A stretch of 64,000 nucleotides of DNA from Roseibium sp. TrichSKD4 (GTDB lineage: Bacteria; Pseudomonadota; Alphaproteobacteria; Rhizobiales; Stappiaceae): the NCBI RefSeq assembly GCF_000148725.1, contig NZ_GL476319.1:453772-517771 (forward strand), in the 5' to 3' direction. The notes beneath the pieces were generated by a model that was not told the origin of the DNA, ran no database searches, and saw only the letters and a program-made list of their open reading frames with translations. This document shows, piece after piece, positions 50,186-63,021 of the stretch. A program made the translations under genes and the position numbers. Every line of letters starts with the position of its first letter. Position 1 is the stretch's first letter.

Positions 50186-50640
50186 GCGGTTCTGTGAAGG
50201 TGAAGCCCAAGCGTATGGCTCCGTTTCCACTGCGCTTGACTTTAGGTGAGCGCAAAGAGCTGGAACGCCGTGCCGGTGAGATGGCCTTGGGGGCCTATAT
50301 CAAAGCCGTCTTGTTTGCTGATGGTGTCAAGCATCGCCGCCGTGGTGCACGGGCTCCGGTCAAGGATCATGTCATTCTCGCCAAAGTGCTGGCCTGTCTT
50401 GGATCAAGCGGGCTGGTGGAGAGTCTGGAGCGTTTATCCAAAGCTGCCGAGAGCGGTGTCATCCAATGGGATGCCGATGCGCCCGCAGCGGTGCGCAAGG
50501 CCTGTGAAGACATTGTCCTCATGCGCTTGCTCTTGATGCGGGCTCTGGGCTTTCAGGTTGATGAGGACGCACTCTCTTCATCCCTGCGCCAGAGTTTCAA
50601 TCAGGCGGCTTGTGATCCTGACCGGGGTTTGGAGGAGTGA
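50182..50640 (+). CDS. MobC-like relaxosome protein
   Basis: 152 residues. RHH-type N-terminus (RMAPFPLRLTLGERKELERR) and a helical remainder, of the plasmid mobilization MobC type. Its place directly before the relaxase, and its weakly basic nature, support the call. Would bind oriT and help the relaxase. Host-like GC. Confidence 0.75.
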   Translation: MSGSVKVKPKRMAPFPLRLTLGERKELERRAGEMALGAYIKAVLFADGVKHRRRGARAPVKDHVILAKVLACLGSSGLVESLERLSKAAESGVIQWDADAPAAVRKACEDIVLMRLLLMRALGFQVDEDALSSSLRQSFNQAACDPDRGLEE

Positions 50641-50644
50641 TGCC

Positions 50645-51928
50645 ATGATCCTTAAAGGCTCACAGCGCGGTGGGGCAATCAATCTCGCCGATCATTTGAT
50701 GAATGACCGCGAGAATGATCATGTCACCTTGGTTGAAGTGCGCGGTTTTGTTGCCCGTGACCTGCATGGCGCATTGGCGGAAGCCTATGCCATCTCCAAG
50801 GGCACAAAATGCGAGCAGTTTTTTTTCTCGCTGTCTCTCAATCCTCCCAAAGAGATTGTTGCCTCGGAACAGGATCTGATTGATGCGGCCAATCAGGCCG
50901 AAGAGAAGCTCGGCCTGCACAACCAGCCCCGTGCCATTGTGTTTCATGAGAAGGAAGGTCGTCGCCATGCCCATGTGGTGTGGTCTCGCATTGATGGGAT
51001 CTCCATGAAGGCCATTCCGCTTCCGCATTTCAAAAACAAGCTCATGAGTCTTGCGCGGGATTTGTATCTTGAGCATGGCTGGGAGCTGCCCGAAGGCCTG
51101 CGCCGCGATGGTGGCAAGTCCCCCTTGAACTTCACCCTTGCCGAATGGCAACAGGCCAAACGTCTGAAGCTTGATCCGCGGGAGATCAAACAGAGCTTTC
51201 GCGATGCCTGGGATCGATCTGACAGTGCCAAGGCGTTTCAGCATGCGCTGGAAGACAAAGGCTATTTCCTTGCCAAGGGTGACAGGCGGAGTTTTGTTGC
51301 GCTTGATATTCATGGCGAGGTCTTCTCTGTCCCCCGCATGCTTGGGATCAAAACCAAAGAGGTCAAACACAAGCTGGGTGATCCTGAGAGCCTTGCAAGT
51401 GTCGATGACACCAAGAGCGCGATTGCTCGCAAGGTCACCGATCATATCCATGAGTATATTGAACAGGTGGATGCCAAGCATGATCAGGACATGCAGCCGC
51501 TCACCGATCAAAAACTATCCATGAGAGCAAACCACCGCAGTGAACGCCAGCACCTCAAAGCCAAACAGCAGGAGCGCGAACAAGCGGAGACGCGCGCCCG
51601 CAATGCCCGTATGACCACAGGCCTGCGCGGTCTTTGGGATCGGGTCTCGGGCAATCGCGCCAAGGTGCAAAAGCAAAACGAGCAAGAGGCTTGGCTTGCT
51701 GCCAAGCGTGATCTAAAGCAACGGGATGAGCTGGTCAAAGCGCAAATGCTGGAGCGACGCAAGATCCAGCTTGAGCTCGACAAACTCCGGCGTAAACACA
51801 TCAAGGATCGACAAATCCTCTACCGCGATATCACTCAAGCCATGCGGATGAGTGATCAAGTTGAGCGCATGCAAAGGCAAGACAAAACACGCGATCACAG
51901 CCGCGAGTATCGAGGGCCAAGTCTGTAA
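50645..51928 (+). CDS. Relaxase/mobilization nuclease
   Basis: 427 residues from ATG 50645 (GGAGGAG 9 nt upstream; the frame opens at 50558). MobA/VirD2-like N-terminal domain with motif III as EKEGRRHAHVVWSRID (metal-binding His near residues 107-109) and earlier EQFFFSLSLNPP. The C-terminal third is a charged coiled coil. It nicks oriT and leads DNA into the recipient. Downstream of mobC by 4 bp. Confidence 0.85.
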   Translation: MILKGSQRGGAINLADHLMNDRENDHVTLVEVRGFVARDLHGALAEAYAISKGTKCEQFFFSLSLNPPKEIVASEQDLIDAANQAEEKLGLHNQPRAIVFHEKEGRRHAHVVWSRIDGISMKAIPLPHFKNKLMSLARDLYLEHGWELPEGLRRDGGKSPLNFTLAEWQQAKRLKLDPREIKQSFRDAWDRSDSAKAFQHALEDKGYFLAKGDRRSFVALDIHGEVFSVPRMLGIKTKEVKHKLGDPESLASVDDTKSAIARKVTDHIHEYIEQVDAKHDQDMQPLTDQKLSMRANHRSERQHLKAKQQEREQAETRARNARMTTGLRGLWDRVSGNRAKVQKQNEQEAWLAAKRDLKQRDELVKAQMLERRKIQLELDKLRRKHIKDRQILYRDITQAMRMSDQVERMQRQDKTRDHSREYRGPSL

Positions 51929-51945
51929 GACTGGGATGAGTTGAA

Positions 51946-53052
51946 TTACATCACCTCAGTAGAGTTCATAACATTCAGCCAATACCGCGTATAGCGCCTT
52001 TCACCGGTCTTGATGAGAGCGCCTTTTTCAACGAGATCGGCCAAATCGCGGGTTGTTGTTGGCCTAGTGGCGCCTGTAATTGCCATGTAATTATCAGCGC
52101 TCAGCCCGCCCTTGAACCCTTCAGGGCCTTCACGGAACATCCGTGCGATGGCTTTTTCTTGCCGTTCATTCAAGTGTTTGCGAAGCCTGTCATACAACTT
52201 TGTTTTTGCGATTAAAAATTCAATCAGCCGCAATGAATATGACTGCGCTTCCAATATGGTATTGGCGAAGTAAGCAATCCAGTCTTGAAGATGAAGCGTC
52301 TTGTTCGAGCGCTCCAAATTCCCGTAGTAAGCCTTTTTCTTGGATTCAATGGCATAGGACAGCGCAAGAAGCGTTGGTTGCCCAAGATTTTGAGATAAGG
52401 CTTTTTCAGCAATCGCCCGCCCAATGCGACCGTTTCCGTCTTCGAATGGGTGAATAGATTCAAAGTAAAGATGGGCAATGCTGGCACGCGTGAGCGGTGA
52501 CATGCTTTTACTGGTGTTAAACCAGTCAATAAAGCGCTCCATTTCCAAAGCGACGCTGGATGATGGCGGGGCTTCAAAATGTATTTTGGGAGCATAATCC
52601 GCACCAGAGACGATTTGCATCGGCTCGCTATGGGTTCGATATCGCCCAATATCGTTGAGATCTGTACGTCCTCTTGTCAGCATTCCATGCCAGTCAAAAA
52701 GCATTTTATCCGATAGCGGTTCATCATAAGTCTGATAGAGAGCCGTCATCATGAGGGCGATACCTTGCTCTGCAGGAGTTGCACGCTTGGCCGTTGTATC
52801 CAGACCAAAGTTGCGCCGAAGAGAGGCTTGAACGGAATCCCGATTGAGGAACTCTCCCTCAATGGCAGAGGTTTTAATCGCCTCTGTGCTGATCAGATCG
52901 ATGATAAAGTCATCTTTGTCCTTGGAAGTGATATGCCTGAGAGCGCCAACAACCACGCCAGATTGTTTTAAAAAATCAGCTTCCAAATCTGTCAATGCAC
53001 TCTGATCATAGGTAAAGCTGGGCCAATCAGGGTGCTGCCAGTTCCATTGCAT
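51946..53052 (-). CDS. Fic-family AMPylase with DUF4172 and winged helix
   Basis: 368 residues. N-terminal DUF4172 (MQWNWQHPDWPSFTYD), inhibitory motif TSAIEGE (residues 61-67, class II type), Fic core HPFEDGNGRIGR (residues 201-212, catalytic His201) and a C-terminal winged-helix region (FKGGLSADNYMAITGATRPT). All AMP-transfer residues are present, so it can be active once the inhibitory helix is moved. Opposite in direction to the mob genes, with its own promoter that carries an inverted repeat. Target unknown. Confidence 0.9.
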   Translation of the reverse strand: MQWNWQHPDWPSFTYDQSALTDLEADFLKQSGVVVGALRHITSKDKDDFIIDLISTEAIKTSAIEGEFLNRDSVQASLRRNFGLDTTAKRATPAEQGIALMMTALYQTYDEPLSDKMLFDWHGMLTRGRTDLNDIGRYRTHSEPMQIVSGADYAPKIHFEAPPSSSVALEMERFIDWFNTSKSMSPLTRASIAHLYFESIHPFEDGNGRIGRAIAEKALSQNLGQPTLLALSYAIESKKKAYYGNLERSNKTLHLQDWIAYFANTILEAQSYSLRLIEFLIAKTKLYDRLRKHLNERQEKAIARMFREGPEGFKGGLSADNYMAITGATRPTTTRDLADLVEKGALIKTGERRYTRYWLNVMNSTEVM

Positions 53053-53282: not shown

Positions 53283-55061
53283 ATGACGGACAAACCCAAA
53301 ATCCCTCGTATCAACGGGGGTTCATTTCCACCATCGGCATTCCTCAAGAACAAAACAGAACGGTTTATCACCGGGCTGTTCCTTGGGCTGTTTGGTATGA
53401 TCATCGCAGCGCAAACAGGCGTACTCGATAGTCTGCTGCATACACGTCTGGGGCATTATGCGCCGGACCTGACAATGTACCGTGTCAGCGTTGTTCTCAT
53501 ATCCGGGGCGATCGGCTTTGTCATTGGCTGGCTGATTGTCCCTGCCAAAGATCCACTGCGCCAAGTGACACTTGGCGTCATGCTGGGTGGACTAATCGCC
53601 GTGATTATTCTTGATCACGGCCAACTGGGATGGATGGGCGCGGCCATCGGGAGCGCCATTGCGTTCGCTGTGGGTGTTCACTATTGGACCGGCGGTTTGA
53701 TGGATAAGATCCGCCAAACACCCAATACATTTGGGACAGCTGCATGGGCGACCATCGCTGAGCTGATGCAGGCCAGTGTCCTCACACTGGAAGGCTTTGT
53801 GCTGGGATATGTGCAAGACCCATCATCCCAAACATCCGAGCCACTGTCTTATACAGGCGTGCGTCATCTTTTGACCATTGCCTCGAACAGATCGGGCAAA
53901 GGCACAAGCGCCATCATCCCAAACCTACTGCGCTATGCAGGATCGGTTCTGGTCGTTGATCCCAAGGGGGAGAATGCGATGATCACCGCCAAGTGCCGCA
54001 AGGCTCTGGGTCAGGCGGTTTATATCATCGATCCTTGGGGCATCACCGGCATGGCAGCGGCCTGCTTTAATCCGCTTGATTGGCTTGTCGCGGGCGATGT
54101 CGATATCTCTGATAATGCCATGTTGCTCGCCGATGCCATCATCATGGCCTCAGGGGGTGATGAGCGGTTCTGGGATGAAGAAGCCAAGGCCTTGTTGCTG
54201 GGTCTGATCCTCTATGTCGCCTTGAGCAAGGATGAGGATGGGCGTCGTCATTTGGGGCGTGTGAGTGATTTGCTTTTGCCGGATGGCGCAGAGCTCAATG
54301 CACTGTTCAAAAACATGCTAGCCTCCCCCAATCATGTGGTCCGCTCCACCGGGGCACGCTGCTTGCAAAAAGAAGAAAAGCTGCTCTCCAACGTCATGGC
54401 TTCTGTCCAAGCCCAAACGCATTTTCTGGATAGCCCACGCTTGCGCGAAAGCCTGTCCCGTTCGGATTTCCGGTTTGAGGATCTGAAGACCAAGGCAATG
54501 TCGGTCTATCTGGTCTTGCCAGCCGACAAGCTGAACAGCCATGAGCGGTGGCTGCGTTTGTTGATCCAGCAGGCCTTGACGGTCAATGCCCGCAACATCG
54601 AACAAACACCGGACAAGCCCGTCTTGTTCCTGCTTGATGAAATGCCCGCCTTGGGCAAGCTCACCATGGTTGAACAGGCCTTTGGCTTGATGGCGGGCTT
54701 TGGCATTCAGATCTGGGGGATCTGCCAGGATCTCAGCCAGTTAAAACGGATCTATGGGGATGGCTGGGAGACCTTTGTCTCCAATGCAGGCATGATCCAG
54801 TATTTTGGCTCGCGCGATAACATGACGGCGGAGTATTTCTCCAAGCTGTGCGGTGTGACCACGGTCTGGGATGTCAGCACGGCCCTTGCGCGGGCAATTG
54901 GTGTCTCAAACGGTCAGCATACGAGCCATTCCAGCACAACCACCGACACGGAGAGCGTGTCGGGCAAGCAGCGCAAACTGGCCTATGCGGATGAGTTGAT
55001 GCGCCTGCCCGACGACCACCAGCTTGTCTTTATCGAGAATATGAACCCGATCAAGGCGTGA
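53283..55061 (+). CDS. virD4: VirD4/TraG-type coupling protein, C-terminus lost to IS3
   Basis: 592 residues. Four N-terminal membrane segments (residues 27-130), then the coupling-protein ATPase: Walker A in ASNRSGKGTSAIIPNLL (about residues 200-216) and Walker B in VLFLLDEMPALG (about 445-456). It ends VFIENMNPIKA; the family continues past this point, and the stop TGA belongs to the IS3 tip (TGATC). So the last native codon is at 55058 and some tens of residues are missing. All core ATPase motifs remain. Confidence 0.88.
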   Translation: MTDKPKIPRINGGSFPPSAFLKNKTERFITGLFLGLFGMIIAAQTGVLDSLLHTRLGHYAPDLTMYRVSVVLISGAIGFVIGWLIVPAKDPLRQVTLGVMLGGLIAVIILDHGQLGWMGAAIGSAIAFAVGVHYWTGGLMDKIRQTPNTFGTAAWATIAELMQASVLTLEGFVLGYVQDPSSQTSEPLSYTGVRHLLTIASNRSGKGTSAIIPNLLRYAGSVLVVDPKGENAMITAKCRKALGQAVYIIDPWGITGMAAACFNPLDWLVAGDVDISDNAMLLADAIIMASGGDERFWDEEAKALLLGLILYVALSKDEDGRRHLGRVSDLLLPDGAELNALFKNMLASPNHVVRSTGARCLQKEEKLLSNVMASVQAQTHFLDSPRLRESLSRSDFRFEDLKTKAMSVYLVLPADKLNSHERWLRLLIQQALTVNARNIEQTPDKPVLFLLDEMPALGKLTMVEQAFGLMAGFGIQIWGICQDLSQLKRIYGDGWETFVSNAGMIQYFGSRDNMTAEYFSKLCGVTTVWDVSTALARAIGVSNGQHTSHSSTTTDTESVSGKQRKLAYADELMRLPDDHQLVFIENMNPIKA

Positions 55062-55114
55062 TCCTCCCCCTTTGAAGTGGTCCATCGTTATGTTTAGGAA
55101 AACGGAGGATCAAC

Positions 55115-55393
55115 ATGGCTACGAAACGTCACAAGCCAGAAGAAATTGTCTCGAAGTTGCGGCAGGTTGAAGTCCTTGTCGGCCAAGGCATGCCGCGCAT
55201 TGATGCCATTCGGCAGGTTCGTATCACCGAACAGACGTATTACCGGTGGCGAAAGCAGTATGGTGGGATGGGAACCGACCAACTGAAAGAACTCAAACGC
55301 CTTCAGAAAGAGAACGAGCGGCTGCGCAAGGCAGTGTCTGACCTGACCCTGGACAAGTTGATCTTGTCGGAGGCCGCAAAGGGAAACTTCTGA
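55115..55393 (+). CDS. IS3 OrfA
   Basis: 92 residues: helix-turn-helix (RITEQTYYRWRKQYGGM) and leucine-zipper coiled coil (LKELKRLQKENERLRKAVSD). DNA-binding subunit of the IS3 transposase; a -1 shift near its end makes OrfAB. Confidence 0.92.
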   Translation: MATKRHKPEEIVSKLRQVEVLVGQGMPRIDAIRQVRITEQTYYRWRKQYGGMGTDQLKELKRLQKENERLRKAVSDLTLDKLILSEAAKGNF

Positions 55394-55947
55394 GCCCCGC
55401 CCGTCGTCGAGCCTGCATCAATCACATTCGTCAGCATCTCGGCGTGTCAGAGCGCCGAACCTGTCGTGTTCTGGGTCAGCACCGGTCTACGCAGAGGAAA
55501 CCTCCAGCAGGGCGTGCTGACGAAGAACGTCTTGTGGCGGATATGATCGCACTCGCCCGTGAGTTTGGCCGTTACGGTTACAGGCGTATTGCAGCTCTGC
55601 TCAGAGATGCTGGTTGGCATGTGAATGACAAGCGTGTTGAGCGGCTGTGGCGACGAGAGGGGCTGAAAGTGCCAATGAAACAACCGAAGAGAGGGCGGCT
55701 CTGGCTGAACGACGGATCATGTGTCCGGCTGCGGCCAGAGTATCCCAATCATGTCTGGAGCTATGACTTCGTGCACTGCCGAACCAATGAAGGAAAAGCG
55801 TTCCGGACACTGAACATCCTGGACGAGTATTCCCGAGAGTGCCTGGCAATCCGGGTGAAGCGAAATCTGAACTCCACCGACGTGATTGATGTGCTAACGG
55901 ATCTCTTCATCCTGCGAGGTGTTCCAGCCTACATCAGATCAGACAAC
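55390..55947 (+). pseudogene. IS3 OrfB, 5' part (interrupted)
   Basis: Frame -1 to orfA, starting LSPARRRACINHIRQHLGVS. Integrase core begins with GRYGYRRIAALLRDAGWHVN, first catalytic Asp in NHVWSYDFVHC and second in AYIRSDN, where the IS110-family element interrupts it; five foreign codons follow to a stop at 55965. Confidence 0.88.
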
Positions 55948-55966
55948 GTCCTATATTCGGAATGAC

Positions 55967-56207
55967 TGGCTGCTTTGGCATCAGGTCATTGTCGTGCTGA
56001 GCATTCTCGGCACGTTTGAATTTGCGTCAGTTTGGCTTTTTGATCAACAACATGTCTCTCCCATAACAAACACAGAGTACGCTTTTGCGGCTCTCACCGT
56101 CCTTAAGACGAGATCTCTCTGTCGTTGAGCAGAAGGCCTGAACATTATCTACGAGGTCGAATGTTCGCCTCTACGGCCCTGTCAGAGAAGGGTCCTTCTG
56201 CCGTCGA
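55967..56207 (-). ncRNA. Probable bridge-RNA region of the IS1111-type element
   Basis: 240 bp of non-coding DNA after the transposase stop. In the IS1111 group the bridge RNA, which pairs with target and donor DNA, is made from this end; in the IS110 group from the 5' end. The role is inferred from element type; RNA folding was not computed. Confidence 0.4.
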
Positions 56208-57440
56208 TCATCCCTCAAAGAAGGGACGATAGGGTTCGCCGCGTTTGATGATCCCGTGTACGGTGCGGGCCATCTTGGCAGCGATTGCGGTATAGGCCTT
56301 TCGGCGCAAATGGGTGTTTTGTCGATCCTTGGCGATGTAACGTTCGAACTTGTCGCGGAAGCTGTTGGTCTTTTGCAGGATGGCAACCTGACCAGCCATC
56401 CAGAGAGTACGGCGCAATCTGGCATTGCCATATTTTGAGAGTTTGGTCTGGCCTCGGAAAGTCCCGGACTGGATCGTTGCGAGGTCCATCCCGCAAAACT
56501 TCAGAAACTGGCGGTGATGTTGAAAGCGGCGCAGGTCACCGGCTTCTGCCAATATGGTCAGGGCGTTTATCGGACCAATACCAGGAATGGATGTCAGCAG
56601 CTGATAGTCCGCATTGTTCTTGAGCAGCTCAACGGCGCGGTCCTCAATCTGATTACGCTGCGCGATCAGACCACCTCCCTCCGCGAGAACCATCCGGAAC
56701 ATCCTTACAGCGTCAGAATCTGGGGTAATTGGTAAGCCGACGGAGGTTTTTGCAGTCTTATAAATGTCTGCAAGCAAACGCTCTTTTGAGACCTTGCGGC
56801 CAACGACCTCCCAAGCATCGGCAATGAAGGCCTTTTGTTCCATGGCCGAGATAAAATGCGGCGAAGGATACCGCTCGAGGAAGGCAAAGAACCAATCACT
56901 GCGCGAACTGCGATGAAAGCGTTCTGCCTCGGGCCAATACAGCGGCAGGTAATGGGTCAGAACCCGATGCCAAAGCTCGGTCTTCGAGCGCGAGACGATG
57001 TCGTGGGTTTTGGAAAGTTCCTGAAGATCGTTCGTGCCGCACAGCATGGGGTCGTGGTAGAACTGCTCGTTCCCGATCTGCATCATGTGCAGGATGACCT
57101 GGGCATCCTTTGGATCGTTCTTGTCCCAACTGTTGTTCAAAGCCTCGCGGGTGCGGGCCAAAGCAACGGACGACACCAACTTGACTTCGAACCCTGCGCG
57201 CCCGAGCCGGTAAGCTAGGGCGCGATGGTAATTGCCCGTTGCTTCAAAAGCCGCGCGCACAGGACGACCATAGTCCAAGAGCGCCGCGATCAAGCGGTTA
57301 AAGTCGTCGAGCTGGTTCAACACAGTCAGACGGCGGCGGCGTTTTTTACCCGGAACAGCAATCAAAACTTCATGGCGAGCTTTTGCGATGTCGATCGCAA
57401 CCAAAACAGGCTCGGTCTGTGCAATATTGGCATCGGTCAT
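56208..57440 (-). CDS. IS110-family transposase (DEDD)
   Basis: 410 residues from ATG 57440 (the frame opens at 57509). N-terminal RuvC-like DEDD domain: AIDIAKARHEVLIAV (Asp), FEATGNYHRALAYRLG (Glu) and NDPKDAQVILHMMQ (Asp pair). C-terminal Transposase_20 domain: LLTSIPGIGPINALTILAEAG and a region with the essential Ser (GTFRGQTKLSKYGNARLRRT). Apparently intact. Confidence 0.93.
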   Translation of the reverse strand: MTDANIAQTEPVLVAIDIAKARHEVLIAVPGKKRRRRLTVLNQLDDFNRLIAALLDYGRPVRAAFEATGNYHRALAYRLGRAGFEVKLVSSVALARTREALNNSWDKNDPKDAQVILHMMQIGNEQFYHDPMLCGTNDLQELSKTHDIVSRSKTELWHRVLTHYLPLYWPEAERFHRSSRSDWFFAFLERYPSPHFISAMEQKAFIADAWEVVGRKVSKERLLADIYKTAKTSVGLPITPDSDAVRMFRMVLAEGGGLIAQRNQIEDRAVELLKNNADYQLLTSIPGIGPINALTILAEAGDLRRFQHHRQFLKFCGMDLATIQSGTFRGQTKLSKYGNARLRRTLWMAGQVAILQKTNSFRDKFERYIAKDRQNTHLRRKAYTAIAAKMARTVHGIIKRGEPYRPFFEG

Positions 57441-57578
57441 AGTCGGTCTCCCTTGCAGTGTGGTTTGTTGCAAAACCACTGTAGGGACCTGAGACCCGGC
57501 TATGATCACCTTCTGCGCTATTTGGTGGCTGCGCAGGCAATCATAGCCTCTGAAGCAGTGTCATTCCGAAGGTGTTAT

Positions 57579-57872
57579 GGGCCGGAGTTCATTGCTCAGG
57601 CAGTCAGGGACTGGATCAACGCTGTGGGTGCAAAGACCGCGTACATCGAACCAGGTTCGCCATGGGAGAACGGATACTGCGAGAGCTTCAACGCCCGCCT
57701 CCGAGATGAGCTACTCAATGGTGAAATCTTCTACAGCTTAAAGGAAGCACAAATCCTGATTGAACAATGGAGGAAACATTACAATACCAAACGCCCACAC
57801 AGCGCCTTGGGCTACCTACCACCGGCACCAGAAACCATCGTCCGGATGGACCAAAGCCCAGTCATGCACTAA
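57579..57872 (+). pseudogene. IS3 OrfB, 3' part
   Basis: 97 codons continuing the interrupted orfB: GPEFIAQAVRDWINAVGAKT, catalytic Glu in SPWENGYCESFNARLRDEL, ending QSPVMH. It joins 55947 in frame. Confidence 0.9.
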
Positions 57873-57875
57873 CAA

Positions 57876-58469
57876 TCAAAACGGACCACTCAGGTGGGGC
57901 TGATCACGAAAGCCGTTGTTTCTGTTTGTTTGCGCCGCGCCAGATATGACATTCCGCACAAGATTTGAAACGATAGCGATTTCGATGTCCGTTGTTAGGC
58001 ATTCCAAAAAGAACCGCAAAAGATGCTCGGGATCATCGACGTGTTTTGCGATGCGAACGACGGCAATCCACCCTGAATTTGTCGATCTTTCCAGGAACTT
58101 CTCCAAGAGTGGCAGGAAATAGGCAGCCTCTTTAGGCGCTGTATCGATCAACTTATAAATTTTGTTTTCGCCGTAATGGTGATCATTCTCACCTTCGCGG
58201 TCATAGCAGACGTCAGGATCATGAATATCGGTTGCCCAAACGCTGCTGTAGTAATGGATCAGTTCCAACGGATCAGTCGGGAGAAGCTCGTCGTAATATG
58301 CGCGAAGCCGTTGTTGGTAGTCTTCATCGGCATCGTTTCTATCAAAATAGAGCCAATCATTAACTCCGAGTGCCGCCTTATGCCATCCGGGATAGGCTTC
58401 GCGCAGGCGTGCGATCATAGCCTGTAAGTCGTCAAGTAAAACGGCATTGGAGAAAAGGCTTCTCAAATG
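57876..58469 (-). pseudogene. 3' part of the STAND gene after the amber codon, cut by IS3
   Basis: In the same frame as the 757-codon upstream part, directly behind its TAG (58470-58472): HLRSLFSNAVLLDDLQAMIA onward, helical and acidic (GENDHHYGENKIYKLIDTAP). The native sequence stops at about 57907; the last eight codons (QPHLSGPF) are IS3 tip sequence. The true C-terminus is lost. Confidence 0.75.
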
Positions 58470-60743
58470 CTAGCCAATAGTATTTAGCGCCGTTTGATGG
58501 TTGGGATCATTGGTATCAATGGCAATTTTCTCAAGGCGTGACAAAGCCGCTCGATAGTAATCAAAAATCTCTCCGTGTATTGTGGGCTGCCAATCCTGCA
58601 AAGCTTCTCCGGCTCCGATATGTTCCGAGCCTCCAGACCGAGAAAAATGCCTCGTTTCGAGCATGCGATTAAGCGCATCAACGCAGAGTTTCCGTACCCG
58701 TTCATCGGCATCGGCTAGTCCGTCATCCAACACAACGAGCTTTTCCCCAGGCGTAGCTTCTGTTCCCGATAGGTAAAGCTGGAAAAGGCCTGTGAATTGA
58801 CCAGAGGCATTGTTCGACCAGTCTTCGTTTTCCGCGGCACCGAGCTTCAGCAACAACCTGGCTGCCACATCAAACGTCTGACGGCGAAAAACCAGTTTCT
58901 CGAGTGCCCATATCGTATTTCGTCGGCCTGTTTCAAAAGCTACGAGTTCGTCGATAGTCTTTCCGGAGAGCAGCCTATTCAGGTGCTCCATTGTTGCGTC
59001 AGGCGCAAGGTGGACAAAACGGTCGAGAAGCTCTGAGCCAAATTCACTGTCAAGAGCCGCCTCATCAGGCAAAGCCTCAGAAAGCAGAGCATGACCGAAA
59101 TTCGATACCTTATCTGACCAGGACATCCAGCGTAGGCGTCCAACCATCCTCAGCTTCATTTCTTCGCTGAGAGAGCGGAACAAGTCCTCTAAAGTCCCCG
59201 CAGGGTTGCTTTCGAGCCACTGATTTGACAAGCGCATCGCTAGCGGAAGCGGCTGCACCTCGCCATAATCTCCCTGACGAAAAAGGACGCCGCGCTCGGC
59301 AAAGCGCTGCAATTCGTTGAACAATTGTCGTGCAGCCTTGCCGCAAAAAGCTGCTATCTCCTCGAGTTCATCTGCGGCATCGTTTTCCATGCCAACGATT
59401 GTAAAGAGACTCAGAAGCTGCAAGCTTTCAAAGGCTGACTGATCTACTTCATGCTCACCCCACACGATCCGCGAAATCAGGGTCTCGACCGAGCTCAGTT
59501 CTTCGTCTCCACCTTCCAAAGCACGGGATGCGAATACCGCCATCCTTGGGAAACCTTGCGACAAGTCGCGGATCAGGGAAGCATTCCGTTCGCTGACCTG
59601 TTTGTTGGTTGCCTCGGCAATATGGCCGATCAATTCATTTGACGCGGCATTGAGCTCAACAATCAGGTTGCGGCGCATGCCTTGCGCCTTAGTCTCAACG
59701 CCTATCGTTATGAGATGGCAGCGGGAGCCGTCCCGATGGACGGTTTCACTCAGCTTCGTATGGACTTGATCCGGACAATCATCGACAACCAACAGTGTGC
59801 GAGATCCGGTATCGGTAATTTCGCGCGCTATATTCGGAAGCCGATCTTTAACGTCCTCGTAGAGACAATAGATAATCTGGCTCTCGCTCAAGACATCTTG
59901 CGGCAAAGCAGTTTGGCTTGCGATGAGTTGGTGGACGAGGCGCGTTTTTCCAAATCCTGATGGTCCGATTATGCGAACGGCATTTCCTCGTGTCGCGAGG
60001 AAAGTGGATATGACTTCCTGGATTTCATCAAAGGATTTTTCCTCTGCAACCGCGGCATCGTCGTTTTGCCAGGTTTGAATTTCCGCCCCTTTGGCAGTAA
60101 ACCGTGTGTCGCCGTTTTGCTGAAATTCAATTTCAGAGATTTCAGGTGTGCGACTCCAATCCTCGAAGGTTTGAAACCCACCGAGATGAACGTCACGCAG
60201 CAACGCGTTGAGCCAGAGCGCCACCGACGGATGCGTATTCGTCCATGCAGCTAGTCTGTTGCAATCATAAATTTGGATCGAGGATAGCAGGGAAGGATCG
60301 TTACCGGTGTCTATTATCCCTTCTTGAATAGCTTTAACACGACGGTCGACGATTGTGCCGACAACCGGAGTTGGCGTTACGATGACATAACCACCACTCT
60401 GCGAAATGGCTTCCTCTAGAGCTTCGCTAAGTTTTGGCTCGTCGGAACCTTGCGAGGGCTTCGTCTGCGTTTCCGCTTTCAGACCAGCTGGAGAGGTTAC
60501 TCCCTTTTTACATTGAAAAATCGTGAAACCGCTTGGCAACCAATCGGTCTCATTCGGTCCACCTGACCATGAAACACGAGCATCATCACCACCGTCAGCG
60601 ATAGTTATCTGCGCTGGGGCTGTACCGGATCGTAAAGGAATAGAATTTTTGTTGAGTTCAGCACTGATGAGACGACGAAGGAGGTCGACGACCTGATGTT
60701 CATCCAGCCGTTTAACTTGATCGGAATTAACCACAAAAATCAT
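58470..60743 (-). CDS. Nuclease-STAND NTPase, Avs-like defence protein (interrupted)
   Basis: 757 codons from ATG 60743 (AGG about 10 nt upstream; the frame opens at 60776). N-terminal part looks like an Mrr-type endonuclease: NETDWLPSGFTIFQCKKG gives a D-(Q)xK pattern near residues 68-80. Central NTPase: Walker A in IIGPSGFGKTRLVHQL (about 255-268) and Walker B in RTLLVVDDCPDQ (about 312-322). The remainder is helical, repeat-like (LLSLFTIVGMENDAADELEE, VRKLCVDALNRMLETRHFSR). Nuclease-STAND-repeat layout is that of antiviral Avs proteins. The frame goes on past TAG 58470-58472, then is cut by IS3. Function is inference. Confidence 0.65.
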   Translation of the reverse strand: MIFVVNSDQVKRLDEHQVVDLLRRLISAELNKNSIPLRSGTAPAQITIADGGDDARVSWSGGPNETDWLPSGFTIFQCKKGVTSPAGLKAETQTKPSQGSDEPKLSEALEEAISQSGGYVIVTPTPVVGTIVDRRVKAIQEGIIDTGNDPSLLSSIQIYDCNRLAAWTNTHPSVALWLNALLRDVHLGGFQTFEDWSRTPEISEIEFQQNGDTRFTAKGAEIQTWQNDDAAVAEEKSFDEIQEVISTFLATRGNAVRIIGPSGFGKTRLVHQLIASQTALPQDVLSESQIIYCLYEDVKDRLPNIAREITDTGSRTLLVVDDCPDQVHTKLSETVHRDGSRCHLITIGVETKAQGMRRNLIVELNAASNELIGHIAEATNKQVSERNASLIRDLSQGFPRMAVFASRALEGGDEELSSVETLISRIVWGEHEVDQSAFESLQLLSLFTIVGMENDAADELEEIAAFCGKAARQLFNELQRFAERGVLFRQGDYGEVQPLPLAMRLSNQWLESNPAGTLEDLFRSLSEEMKLRMVGRLRWMSWSDKVSNFGHALLSEALPDEAALDSEFGSELLDRFVHLAPDATMEHLNRLLSGKTIDELVAFETGRRNTIWALEKLVFRRQTFDVAARLLLKLGAAENEDWSNNASGQFTGLFQLYLSGTEATPGEKLVVLDDGLADADERVRKLCVDALNRMLETRHFSRSGGSEHIGAGEALQDWQPTIHGEIFDYYRAALSRLEKIAIDTNDPNHQTALNTIG

Positions 60744-60826
60744 CTTAAAATACCTAGAGCTGAGAATATAGAACACCTCAAAATTGAAGAATCAGCCATT
60801 GCAAGCAAGCGAGTGTAGACATCGAT

Positions 60827-61108
60827 TCACAGAATACTCTTACCGATGAAACCGCGCCCCGGTAATCGGCGGATTGGACACGTCCGGCACGTCGCAAATG
60901 TCGGTCTTGCCCAAAACTGCATCATCCCGACCACCGCATTAGCCGCGTCATGCGCCTCCAGTTCGCCCCGCTTTGTACGCTCATGCCAAGCGCGCTTGCG
61001 GGTTTCGACAAAACGCCGGGCAGCGACCATGGCTTCGCAGTAAAGCTTCGGATCACGTTTAAAGACTTCCGCCGCAAACGCCTGAGGGGCGACATTTTCC
61101 CGTTGCAT
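60827..61108 (-). CDS. Small protein of the mobile element, unknown
   Basis: 93 residues, MQRENVAPQAFAAEVFKRDP, then arginine- and alanine-rich helices (ARRFVETRKRAWHERTKRGE) and a Cys pair (CRTCPIRR). No family recognised. 13 bp downstream of the integrase on the same strand, so perhaps a companion of the recombinase. The C-terminus is odd (GRGFIGKSIL). Confidence 0.45.
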   Translation of the reverse strand: MQRENVAPQAFAAEVFKRDPKLYCEAMVAARRFVETRKRAWHERTKRGELEAHDAANAVVGMMQFWARPTFATCRTCPIRRLPGRGFIGKSIL

Positions 61109-61121
61109 TCTCTTTCCCCTT

Positions 61122-62600
61122 TTATCGCTTCACCTTTCGCCGCCTTCGCCGCACGTCCGGCCCGCTTAAACTGTCAAACAGCCCGGCATCAAACGGCAAT
61201 TCGATTTTTTGAAGTTCCTTGTGCCGGTAGGCCAGCGACCCACCGTCGCCATAGTCAGGCCGTTTAAGCGCATGGCCCATCAAAAGACAGCGCAGCTCAT
61301 AATCAAGATGCGCTTCCTTCATCCGGCTTTCAAAGGAATGGCGAAGCGAATAGACCCGGTGACTGGCAGACGGCAAAAGATCCATGCGCCGCAAATGCTT
61401 CATCGCCGTTGCCGAGAAATTGGTTTCCTTGTCCCGGTAACGCGCAAAGCCGTCCGGCGCGCGTTTGAACGCTTCCAGCGCCACGCCTATCAGCGGAATT
61501 TGCCGAATGCTGGATTCCGTCTTGATTGCCCTGTCTTCCCGAAACCGGATTTCAATGAAGGGGATTTCGGCGTCCAGATAGATCTGGTCGCCCGTGATGT
61601 TGCAAAGCTCGGACGGGCGGCACCCGGTCTCAATCAGACAGAGGAAAAGAAGCGCCGCTTCCCGGTTTAAACCGTCAAAGGCAACCGGCACCAAGAACCT
61701 CTCGCAAATCCAGCTCACGGCAAATGGCGGCACGTCCTACTTCAGCGCTTTCGGATCGCGGAAGGAAAGGTTCCTAAACGGGTTTTCCCGCGTATCTTCG
61801 CCAAGGCGGCGATAATATTCGCCGTAGATCCGGCGCATGTTGCCAATGTCCCGGTTGGCGGAATTGCCGGAAAGCCGTTTCTGACCTCGTTTACCCTTGG
61901 GACCGCCGGTTACCCGCTTCTTCCACCAATCGTAAAAGGCCAGCGCATCTTCGCGGGTAATCGCGGCTAAATCCTTATCTCCCACAACCTTGATGAAATT
62001 CGCCGCCGCCCGGCGTTTGACCTTCCTGTAATTCTCTTTCTGGGTTTCGCTCTTGCCCGTCAGCTCGTCCGGCGCGATTTCATCCAGAAAGATCTCCAGC
62101 GCCTTGGACACTTTCACCGATGGCTTGGGAGCCGTGCCCAGCAAGGCTTCGGCATCCGATTGCAGCGCCAGCTCCGCCCGCGCTTTCCCTGCCCCCTGCG
62201 CCGAACGTCTTTCCAGCGCTTCCAGCCGTTCCAGAACATCGTCCAGCGGCGCTTGGGTCAAAAGGTCATGGGAAGACTTCCAGACAAATCCGAGCGCCAG
62301 CGCCCGCTTTTGGGCCGATACATACCGCGCCGTTGCCGGATCAATCGCCGCTCCAACGCCAGCGCCACCCGCACCGCCCACAACACGCGACGACGCAACG
62401 CCCATGAGCGAAGCCCAATAAAGCGAATCCGCTTCCTCCATCGCATCCCGCCGCACCCGCGCAACGTCCAGCGATTTTGTCTTGAGAGAGATTTCCAGAG
62501 ATGACCGATTGACCAGAGACCGAACGTCCACCGGCACTTGCCGCCGGTAATACCAGGTGCCGGAACGATGGCACTTCAGGAACCGATCCTTGTCACGCAC
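61122..62600 (-). pseudogene. int: Tyrosine integrase with in-frame amber codon
   Basis: From GTG 62600 (AGGA upstream). N-terminal SAM-like/DUF6538-type part and core-binding domain run to SFRDPKALK, then TAG (61737-61739), then the same frame continues: DVPPFAVSWICERFL and the catalytic domain. Catalytic residues are all after the stop: Arg in ETGCRPSELCNI, HxxR-like box SLRHSFESRM, His in LLMGHALKRPDY and Tyr in SLAYRHKELQ. With readthrough or a single base change it would be complete (about 492 codons). It adjoins the 3' end of tRNA-Leu, a classical attachment site. Confidence 0.85.
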
Positions 62601-62730
62601 CCCGTTTTCCTACACGCAATTGGGGTAAAAACTGGGGTAAATATTGGGGTAAAATCCGCCAAAACGTCAACGAAAAATTCGTGACATTCCAGATTAACTA
62701 ATGATTTCAAATGGATACAATATGGGTAAA

Positions 62731-62815
62731 TGGTGCGGACGACGGGACTCGAACCCGTATGACCGAAGTCGAGGGATTTTAAGTCCCTTGCGTCTACCAG
62801 TTTCGCCACGTCCGC
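62731..62815 (-). tRNA. tRNA-Leu (anticodon UAA)
   Basis: 85 nt including CCA. Acceptor GCGGACG / CGTCCGC, D-arm with GGTAGAC, anticodon stem AGGGA-cttaaaa-TCCCT giving anticodon TAA, long variable arm, T-arm GGGTTCGAGTCCC. The 3' end faces the integrase 131 bp away. Confidence 0.96.
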
Positions 62816-63021
62816 TTCGCGCTCTTGCCTAGCTTCTGAAACGACGTTTCGCAAGTTCCTTTGCTTGGTCCAAGTCACTTTCCCGCATCTTTTGCCAAAA
62901 GCACTGGAAATCTGAAACCGGGCTTTGTATCTGATAGGGTAAGAAACAACGGCACCCATGTAAGCGGCTTGTCATTTTGGCAGGCTGTGCCCCATCCAGA
63001 ACCAAAGCGCAAAGACAAATC

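Follow-up and report, generated by a model that had tools for sequence, protein, structure and literature searches.

A very probably decayed PD-lambda-4_A-like anti-phage defence gene on an apparent tRNA-Leu-associated mobile island

Introduction

The E. coli system PD-lambda-4 defends against phage (Vassallo et al. 2022). Where a review lists it, PD-lambda-4 is filed only under "P-loop NTPase" (PMC10952713). Avs1-4, by comparison, carry nuclease effectors, and STAND proteins have a C-terminal sensor, according to the passages of PMC12931631 that deal with them. A literature search, not exhaustive given the variant spellings of the name, found no statement that the PD-lambda-4_A family resembles STAND or Avs proteins.

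Here we describe a broken gene in a 64-kb stretch of DNA from Roseibium sp. TrichSKD4 (64,000 nucleotides; hereafter the window). The gene is very probably the decayed remnant of a PD-lambda-4_A-like anti-phage defence gene on an apparent tRNA-Leu-associated mobile island (Table 1). As a dead or dying defence gene the window copy would be ordinary in itself; its value lies in the family to which it leads.

Table 1. Features of the defence-gene remnant and its surroundings, in window coordinates.
Feature	Position	Strand	Basis or remark
PD-lambda-4_A-like gene remnant (putative nuclease-STAND-solenoid layout)	57907..60743	-	PADLOC PDLC03991; last 349 of ~1,294 codons missing
In-frame TAG, codon 758, apparent nonsense lesion	58470..58472	-	sense codon in 7/7 relatives compared
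Homologous frame past TAG, 187 codons, stop-free	57907..58469	-	dN/dS to L011 0.094
DGGDD motif (residues 50-54), which may bind metal in an endonuclease-like domain	60582..60596	-	invariant residues
QCK motif (QxK), residues 77-79 counted from ATG	60507..60515	-	Q77, K79 invariant in 31/31
Walker A GPSGFGKT, residues 260-267	59943..59966	-	G260, S262, G263, G265, K266 invariant in 36/36
Walker B LLVVDD, residues 317-322	59778..59795	-	D321 invariant in 36/36
Tyrosine integrase of island, in-frame TAG at 61737-61739	61122..62600	-	Pfam DUF6538 + Phage_integrase on its two pieces
tRNA-Leu(TAA) beside integrase, likely attachment site	62731..62815	-	ARAGORN
IS3-family element interrupted by IS110-family element	55059..57906	.	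full-length matches to plasmid copies
IS110-family transposase nested in IS3 transposase gene	56208..57509	-	Pfam PF01548 + PF02371
VirD4/TraG-type coupling protein gene, truncated at its 3' end by IS3	53283..55061	+	Pfam T4SS-DNA_transf

Results and Discussion

The window gene resembles PD-lambda-4_A

The PADLOC model PDLC03991 (PD-Lambda-4_A) matches the window protein with an E-value of 4.3e-74 for the open part and of 2.7e-78 when the TAG is written as X, in which case the match spans model positions 3-844 of 1283. The second PD-Lambda-4_A model of PADLOC gives 3.8e-17 and 6e-21, respectively, and mad8 is the sole other PADLOC family matched, weakly, at about 0.008. Among the PADLOC matches listed at E<=1 there is no Avs model. 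In the earlier note, made from the letters alone, the protein was called Avs-like and its family went unrecognised; the Avs-like layout stands (see below), but the family can be named, and it is PD-lambda-4_A-like. Four plasmid relatives of 1,260-1,295 residues match the PD-Lambda-4_A model as well, to position 1272-1277 of 1283 in three of them and to 1045 in one.

Two Enterobacter proteins that match the model at 1,777 and 1,764 bits served as stand-ins for canonical PD-lambda-4_A. The window protein is 26% identical over 734 columns to the first of these (1,777 bits), and an intact relative of 1,294 residues from Shinella (L011) is 25% identical to the near-canonical copy over 864 columns, the best BLASTP segment stopping at L011 residue 832. 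By sequence similarity, then, the window protein is related to PD-lambda-4_A, an anti-phage protein, but divergent from it. The two are alike in their comparable size, in the nearly end-to-end model match of three of the four relatives scanned, and in invariant DGGxD and QxK residues that the near-canonical Enterobacter copy also has. The differences are an identity of only about 25-26% to the Enterobacter stand-ins and, in the window copy, the break and the loss of 349 residues.

Some databases may give PD-lambda-4 a second component. Among the 10 proteins scanned as neighbours at seven of 52 family loci (one to three per locus) we saw no consistent partner gene, nor did one appear among the single neighbours scanned in each of L001 and L002 or the two in each of the near-canonical Enterobacter loci (L093 and L094), where none of the four neighbours matched a PD-lambda-4 model. 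The neighbours scanned include an HNH endonuclease, NERD, TniQ, HEPN/Toprim, Abi and Fic proteins, and housekeeping genes.

An amber codon and an IS3 end truncate the frame

Homology of the minus-strand frame begins at an ATG at 60743, and the earliest possible start is a GTG at 60776. The earlier note had described one long frame that is split by a TAG, continues past it and is ended by IS3, and frame analysis agrees: residues 1-945 of the Shinella protein align without a gap, at 83% identity, from 60743 to 57909 and straight through the TAG. Past the TAG the frame continues for 187 codons. Two details of the earlier description need correction, however: the boundary between IS3 and the gene lies at 57906/57907 and not at 57876, the stop at 57876-57878 that next closes the post-TAG frame being within the IS3 end; and where 945 codons had been taken as the full frame, the full-length protein would have been about 1,294 codons long. 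When the 187 post-TAG codons were shuffled 20,000 times, a stop appeared every time, which, with the gap-free match to L011 across the TAG, excludes a chance open frame. When the window was searched with the intact Shinella protein (tblastn), the missing 349 codons were not found, other matches having E-values of 1.8 or worse. With a TAG at codon 758 and its last 349 codons lost, the gene is not complete.

Scans with the family alignment picked out 74 candidate stretches in bacterial and archaeal genomes, which gave 49 loci, and 47 in viral contigs, which gave three; a single-protein scan of the viral contigs returned no relatives. A frame of about 1,200-1,300 codons is open in 46 of these 52 loci, which are partly non-independent (L031 and L001 of the plasmid set, for example, are one record); in 44 it was seen directly, and in L031 and L050 after the start had been rechecked. 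Such long frames are spread over Alpha-, Beta- and Gammaproteobacteria, cyanobacteria and a few other phyla. At E<=1e-20, the PD-Lambda-4_A model matched in 17 of 397 genomes of the order of Stappia indica and in none of 14 control genomes. The frame is shifted in two close relatives (L014, Mesorhizobium, and L015, Stappia), closed after 89 codons in L021, lost just short of the contig end in L017 and cut by the contig end in L058. Homologues ending naturally at position 757, a possibility raised along with the first description, did not emerge among the 52 loci: L026 alone stops near the place of the TAG, about 100 bases from its contig end, with no family likeness in any of the three frames. 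L014, L015 and L026 are thus broken in different ways, the first two by frameshifts and L026 where its similarity to the family gives out near its contig end, and these lesions may be sequencing or assembly errors.

At the place of the TAG, all seven relatives compared (L011, L012, L013, L014, L015, L016 and L056) have a sense codon. Since, in addition, most relatives are open over about 1,200-1,300 codons, the comparison indicates that the TAG is a nonsense lesion. Together with the truncation by IS3, set against mostly intact relatives, this supports the suggestion that the gene is a defence gene in decay. The TAG could also be a sequencing or assembly error that leaves the IS3 truncation as the only real lesion. 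A single codon is affected, and the draft genome of the relative L014 likewise shows a single small lesion; but the integrase next door has an in-frame TAG of its own, so that the island may plausibly be decaying as a whole, and we regard an error as improbable.

A STAND ATPase between a putative nuclease and a predicted solenoid

AlphaFold2 modelled the 757 open residues, together with 35 relatives, with a mean pLDDT of 85.3 and a pTM of 0.79. In the PDB, Foldseek placed the model closest to the STAND-TPR protein 6mfv (E 3.2e-9) and next to Avs3 bound to terminase (8dgc, 4.1e-9), with SAMD9, NOD2, CED-4, Apaf-1 and NLRC4 among the further top matches. The best 50 rows range in E-value from 3e-9 to 1e-4, with ORC, clamp loaders and other AAA+ proteins in the lower ones, and their whole-chain query-normalised TM-scores are low (0.17-0.30). 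Pfam matched AAA and nSTAND only below threshold, plus a few other weak matches, and searches by sequence for a solved relative of the open part returned weak matches only (E 0.046 or worse). From the top E-values of the model and the Walker motifs, a STAND ATPase fold is well supported. The last 824 residues of L011 were modelled as nearly all helical (pLDDT 86.1), and this C-terminal model matched importins, CAND1 and other HEAT solenoids in Foldseek. The C-terminal part of the family is therefore predicted to be a HEAT-like solenoid.

In the N-terminal domain, D50, G51, G52 and D54 are invariant in all 31 aligned sequences, near-canonical PD-lambda-4_A among them, and so is E91. We take the pattern DGGxD...QxK, with E91, to be a restriction-endonuclease-like signature of PD-(D/E)XK type, and this motif makes it plausible that the domain is a nuclease. 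In hhalign, the domain aligned with E. coli Mrr below significance, at E 0.066 and a probability of 0.8%, its DGGxD falling on that of Mrr, and the unrelated control BtsT gave E 0.37. The N-terminal domain of the window copy has no Pfam match, and no nuclease family is found among the Pfam matches of 31 members. The best Pfam family among those members, AIRS (two members, best E 9.2e-6), was taken as spurious, as were two other matches to the domain, one with C3HR3_4r (8eoz, E 6.3e-4), assembled from a number of weak segments, and one with a portal protein (E 0.67). Of the original description, the QCK motif, the Walker A and B motifs and the helical repeats were thus all recovered, the repeats as a predicted solenoid in the C-terminal model of L011; structure prediction of the 757 open residues returned the STAND fold, so that the STAND half of the term nuclease-STAND stands on model, Foldseek and motifs, and the nuclease half is backed by the invariant motif only.

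The window protein shares with Avs3 (8dgc) the order of an N-terminal effector-like domain, a STAND ATPase and C-terminal repeats. It departs from the Avs/AVAST proteins in the PADLOC result given above and in its solenoid, which is HEAT-like by Foldseek. With 6mfv and receptors of the NLR/Apaf-1 type it has in common an ATPase core of STAND type and the helical segments behind it; the N-terminal domain is another one, and identity in the structural alignments is about 9-16% among the matches listed. By analogy, an intact protein of this family most probably operates in the manner of an Avs/NLR receptor. Its C-terminal HEAT-like solenoid would recognise a phage product, whereupon the central STAND ATPase would switch state and oligomerise, and the N-terminal DGGxD...QxK domain would then cut nucleic acid, so that the phage is cleared or the cell killed. 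These models suggest that PD-lambda-4_A-like proteins are STAND sensors of Avs/NLR type, perhaps nuclease-armed. In the window copy, the nonsense codon at 758 and the IS3-associated loss of 349 codons would each remove part of the solenoid, and with it the sensor. The product, if any, is likely to be a fragment of 757 residues whose sensor is incomplete and, as much of the sensor is missing, the window copy is probably inactive.

Substitutions point to a recent break

Between the window copy and L011, dN/dS is 0.085 before the TAG and 0.094 after it, ratios that are rough because dS is high (0.88 and 1.6). When changes were polarised with L013, synonymous and non-synonymous changes on the window lineage numbered 102:23 before the TAG and 25:11 after it; on the L011 lineage the corresponding counts were 75.5:28.5 and 12:8. 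Given that the substitutions give no sign of relaxed selection, the break looks recent. Between L011 and L012, the non-synonymous distance is 0.125 before the place of the TAG, 0.236 after it and 0.25 in the tail; such a rise toward the C-terminus in intact copies would be as expected of the sensor part.

The same figures bear on whether the 757-residue remnant is a working short form, with nuclease and ATPase but without the full sensor, for example an effector that is constitutive or switched on by a partner. Motif domain, ATPase and first repeats are all still present in the remnant, complete with the family-invariant residues, and amino-acid changes are not in excess on the window lineage. 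However, dN/dS is similarly low past the TAG, a pattern that would then reflect selection before the break; 46 of the 52 loci are open for about 1,200-1,300 codons, and L026, the one that stops nearby, loses family similarity at its contig end. We therefore find a working short form very hard to credit, and continue with a decayed gene.

Amber codons in the defence gene and the integrase

The integrase beside the defence gene has an in-frame TAG as well. Among 12 relatives of the integrase (of 16 loci fetched), 11 have a single frame of 439-528 codons, and the frame of L075 has 259. Conservation among these relatives is poor around the integrase TAG. At eight places in the window, two long open runs of one frame are divided by just one stop; it is a TAG at two of them (the defence gene and the integrase), a TGA at five and a TAA at one, and the latter six may be ordinary gene ends. 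In 33 other long frames of the window, hand-picked from the list of open reading frames and not a curated gene set, the stops are TAG in eight, TGA in 14 and TAA in 11. ARAGORN detected tRNA-Leu(TAA) as the only tRNA in the 64-kb window.

Readthrough of the TAG by a suppressor tRNA or by recoding, which the earlier note had entertained, would give a longer product from a regulated or recoded gene that is not decayed. It would account for the 187 conserved, stop-free codons past the TAG, for the second in-frame TAG in the neighbouring integrase and for the restriction of TAG to these two of the eight single-stop interruptions. Programmed readthrough should leave the TAG conserved, but it is present at this place in none of the seven relatives compared; TAG is not depleted as a stop, ending eight of the 33 picked frames; the window holds no tRNA but tRNA-Leu(TAA); and low divergence past the TAG is equally well explained by a recent lesion. 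Even if the codon were read, the frame would still lack the last 349 residues. Amber recoding was accordingly judged unlikely on stop usage and on the sense codons of the relatives, and readthrough as an account of this gene is, of all the readings considered here, the one to which we give the least credence. Scarcely better are the prospects of two broader proposals, that the host reads TAG as sense often enough to yield longer products from both gene and integrase, the two ambers acting as a regulatory switch, or that the 757-residue nuclease-ATPase, lacking its sensor, has been retained because it acts as an effector set free. A decayed defence gene with a nonsense codon remains the preferred reading.

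The defence gene lies on an apparent island beside tRNA-Leu

The defence gene sits between IS3 and the integrase, which in turn adjoins tRNA-Leu(TAA) and map. Because three of seven related loci (L071, L072 and L074) have a BLASTN match to the tRNA close to map, arranged as in the window, tRNA-Leu(TAA) is suggested to be the attachment site of the island; a second copy of the tRNA end was not found within the window. Among 297 genomes of the order of Stappia indica, the three best counterparts of the map protein share 83-85% identity with it, so that the host probably belongs to Hyphomicrobiales. In a DNA comparison with positions 57000-63000 as query and pieces over 150 bases, similarity to the five closest relatives was limited to the defence gene (57912-60746), and the gene therefore seems to move as a single-gene unit. 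The locus and the broken copies in close relatives illustrate how readily such genes may be gained and lost.

Farther along the window, a MobA/VirD2-type relaxase gene and a gene for a Fic-domain protein (with DUF4172) lie at 50558-53052, beside the VirD4-type gene.

A composite IS3-IS110 element abuts the truncated genes

The right end of IS3 truncates the defence gene, and its left end clips the 3' end of the VirD4-type gene, which has 592 codons here and 616 and 617 in two relatives. The flanks of IS3 show no target duplication, and the two ends of the element are similar. Given the missing duplication and the clipped VirD4-type gene on the other side, an IS3-mediated deletion would explain both cuts better than a simple insertion.

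The IS110-family element is inserted within the codons for the DDE motif of the IS3 transposase, between SDN and GPEF. A literature search on IS110 elements inside IS3 turned up nothing pertinent. Either the IS3-IS110 pair moves as a unit, or this group of IS110 elements targets the conserved catalytic motif of IS3. The same nesting at the same site was seen in all six plasmid copies aligned (of 12 listed), with 61-86% identity by segment, and at least 80% of the composite is covered in 13 of 334 matching plasmid records.
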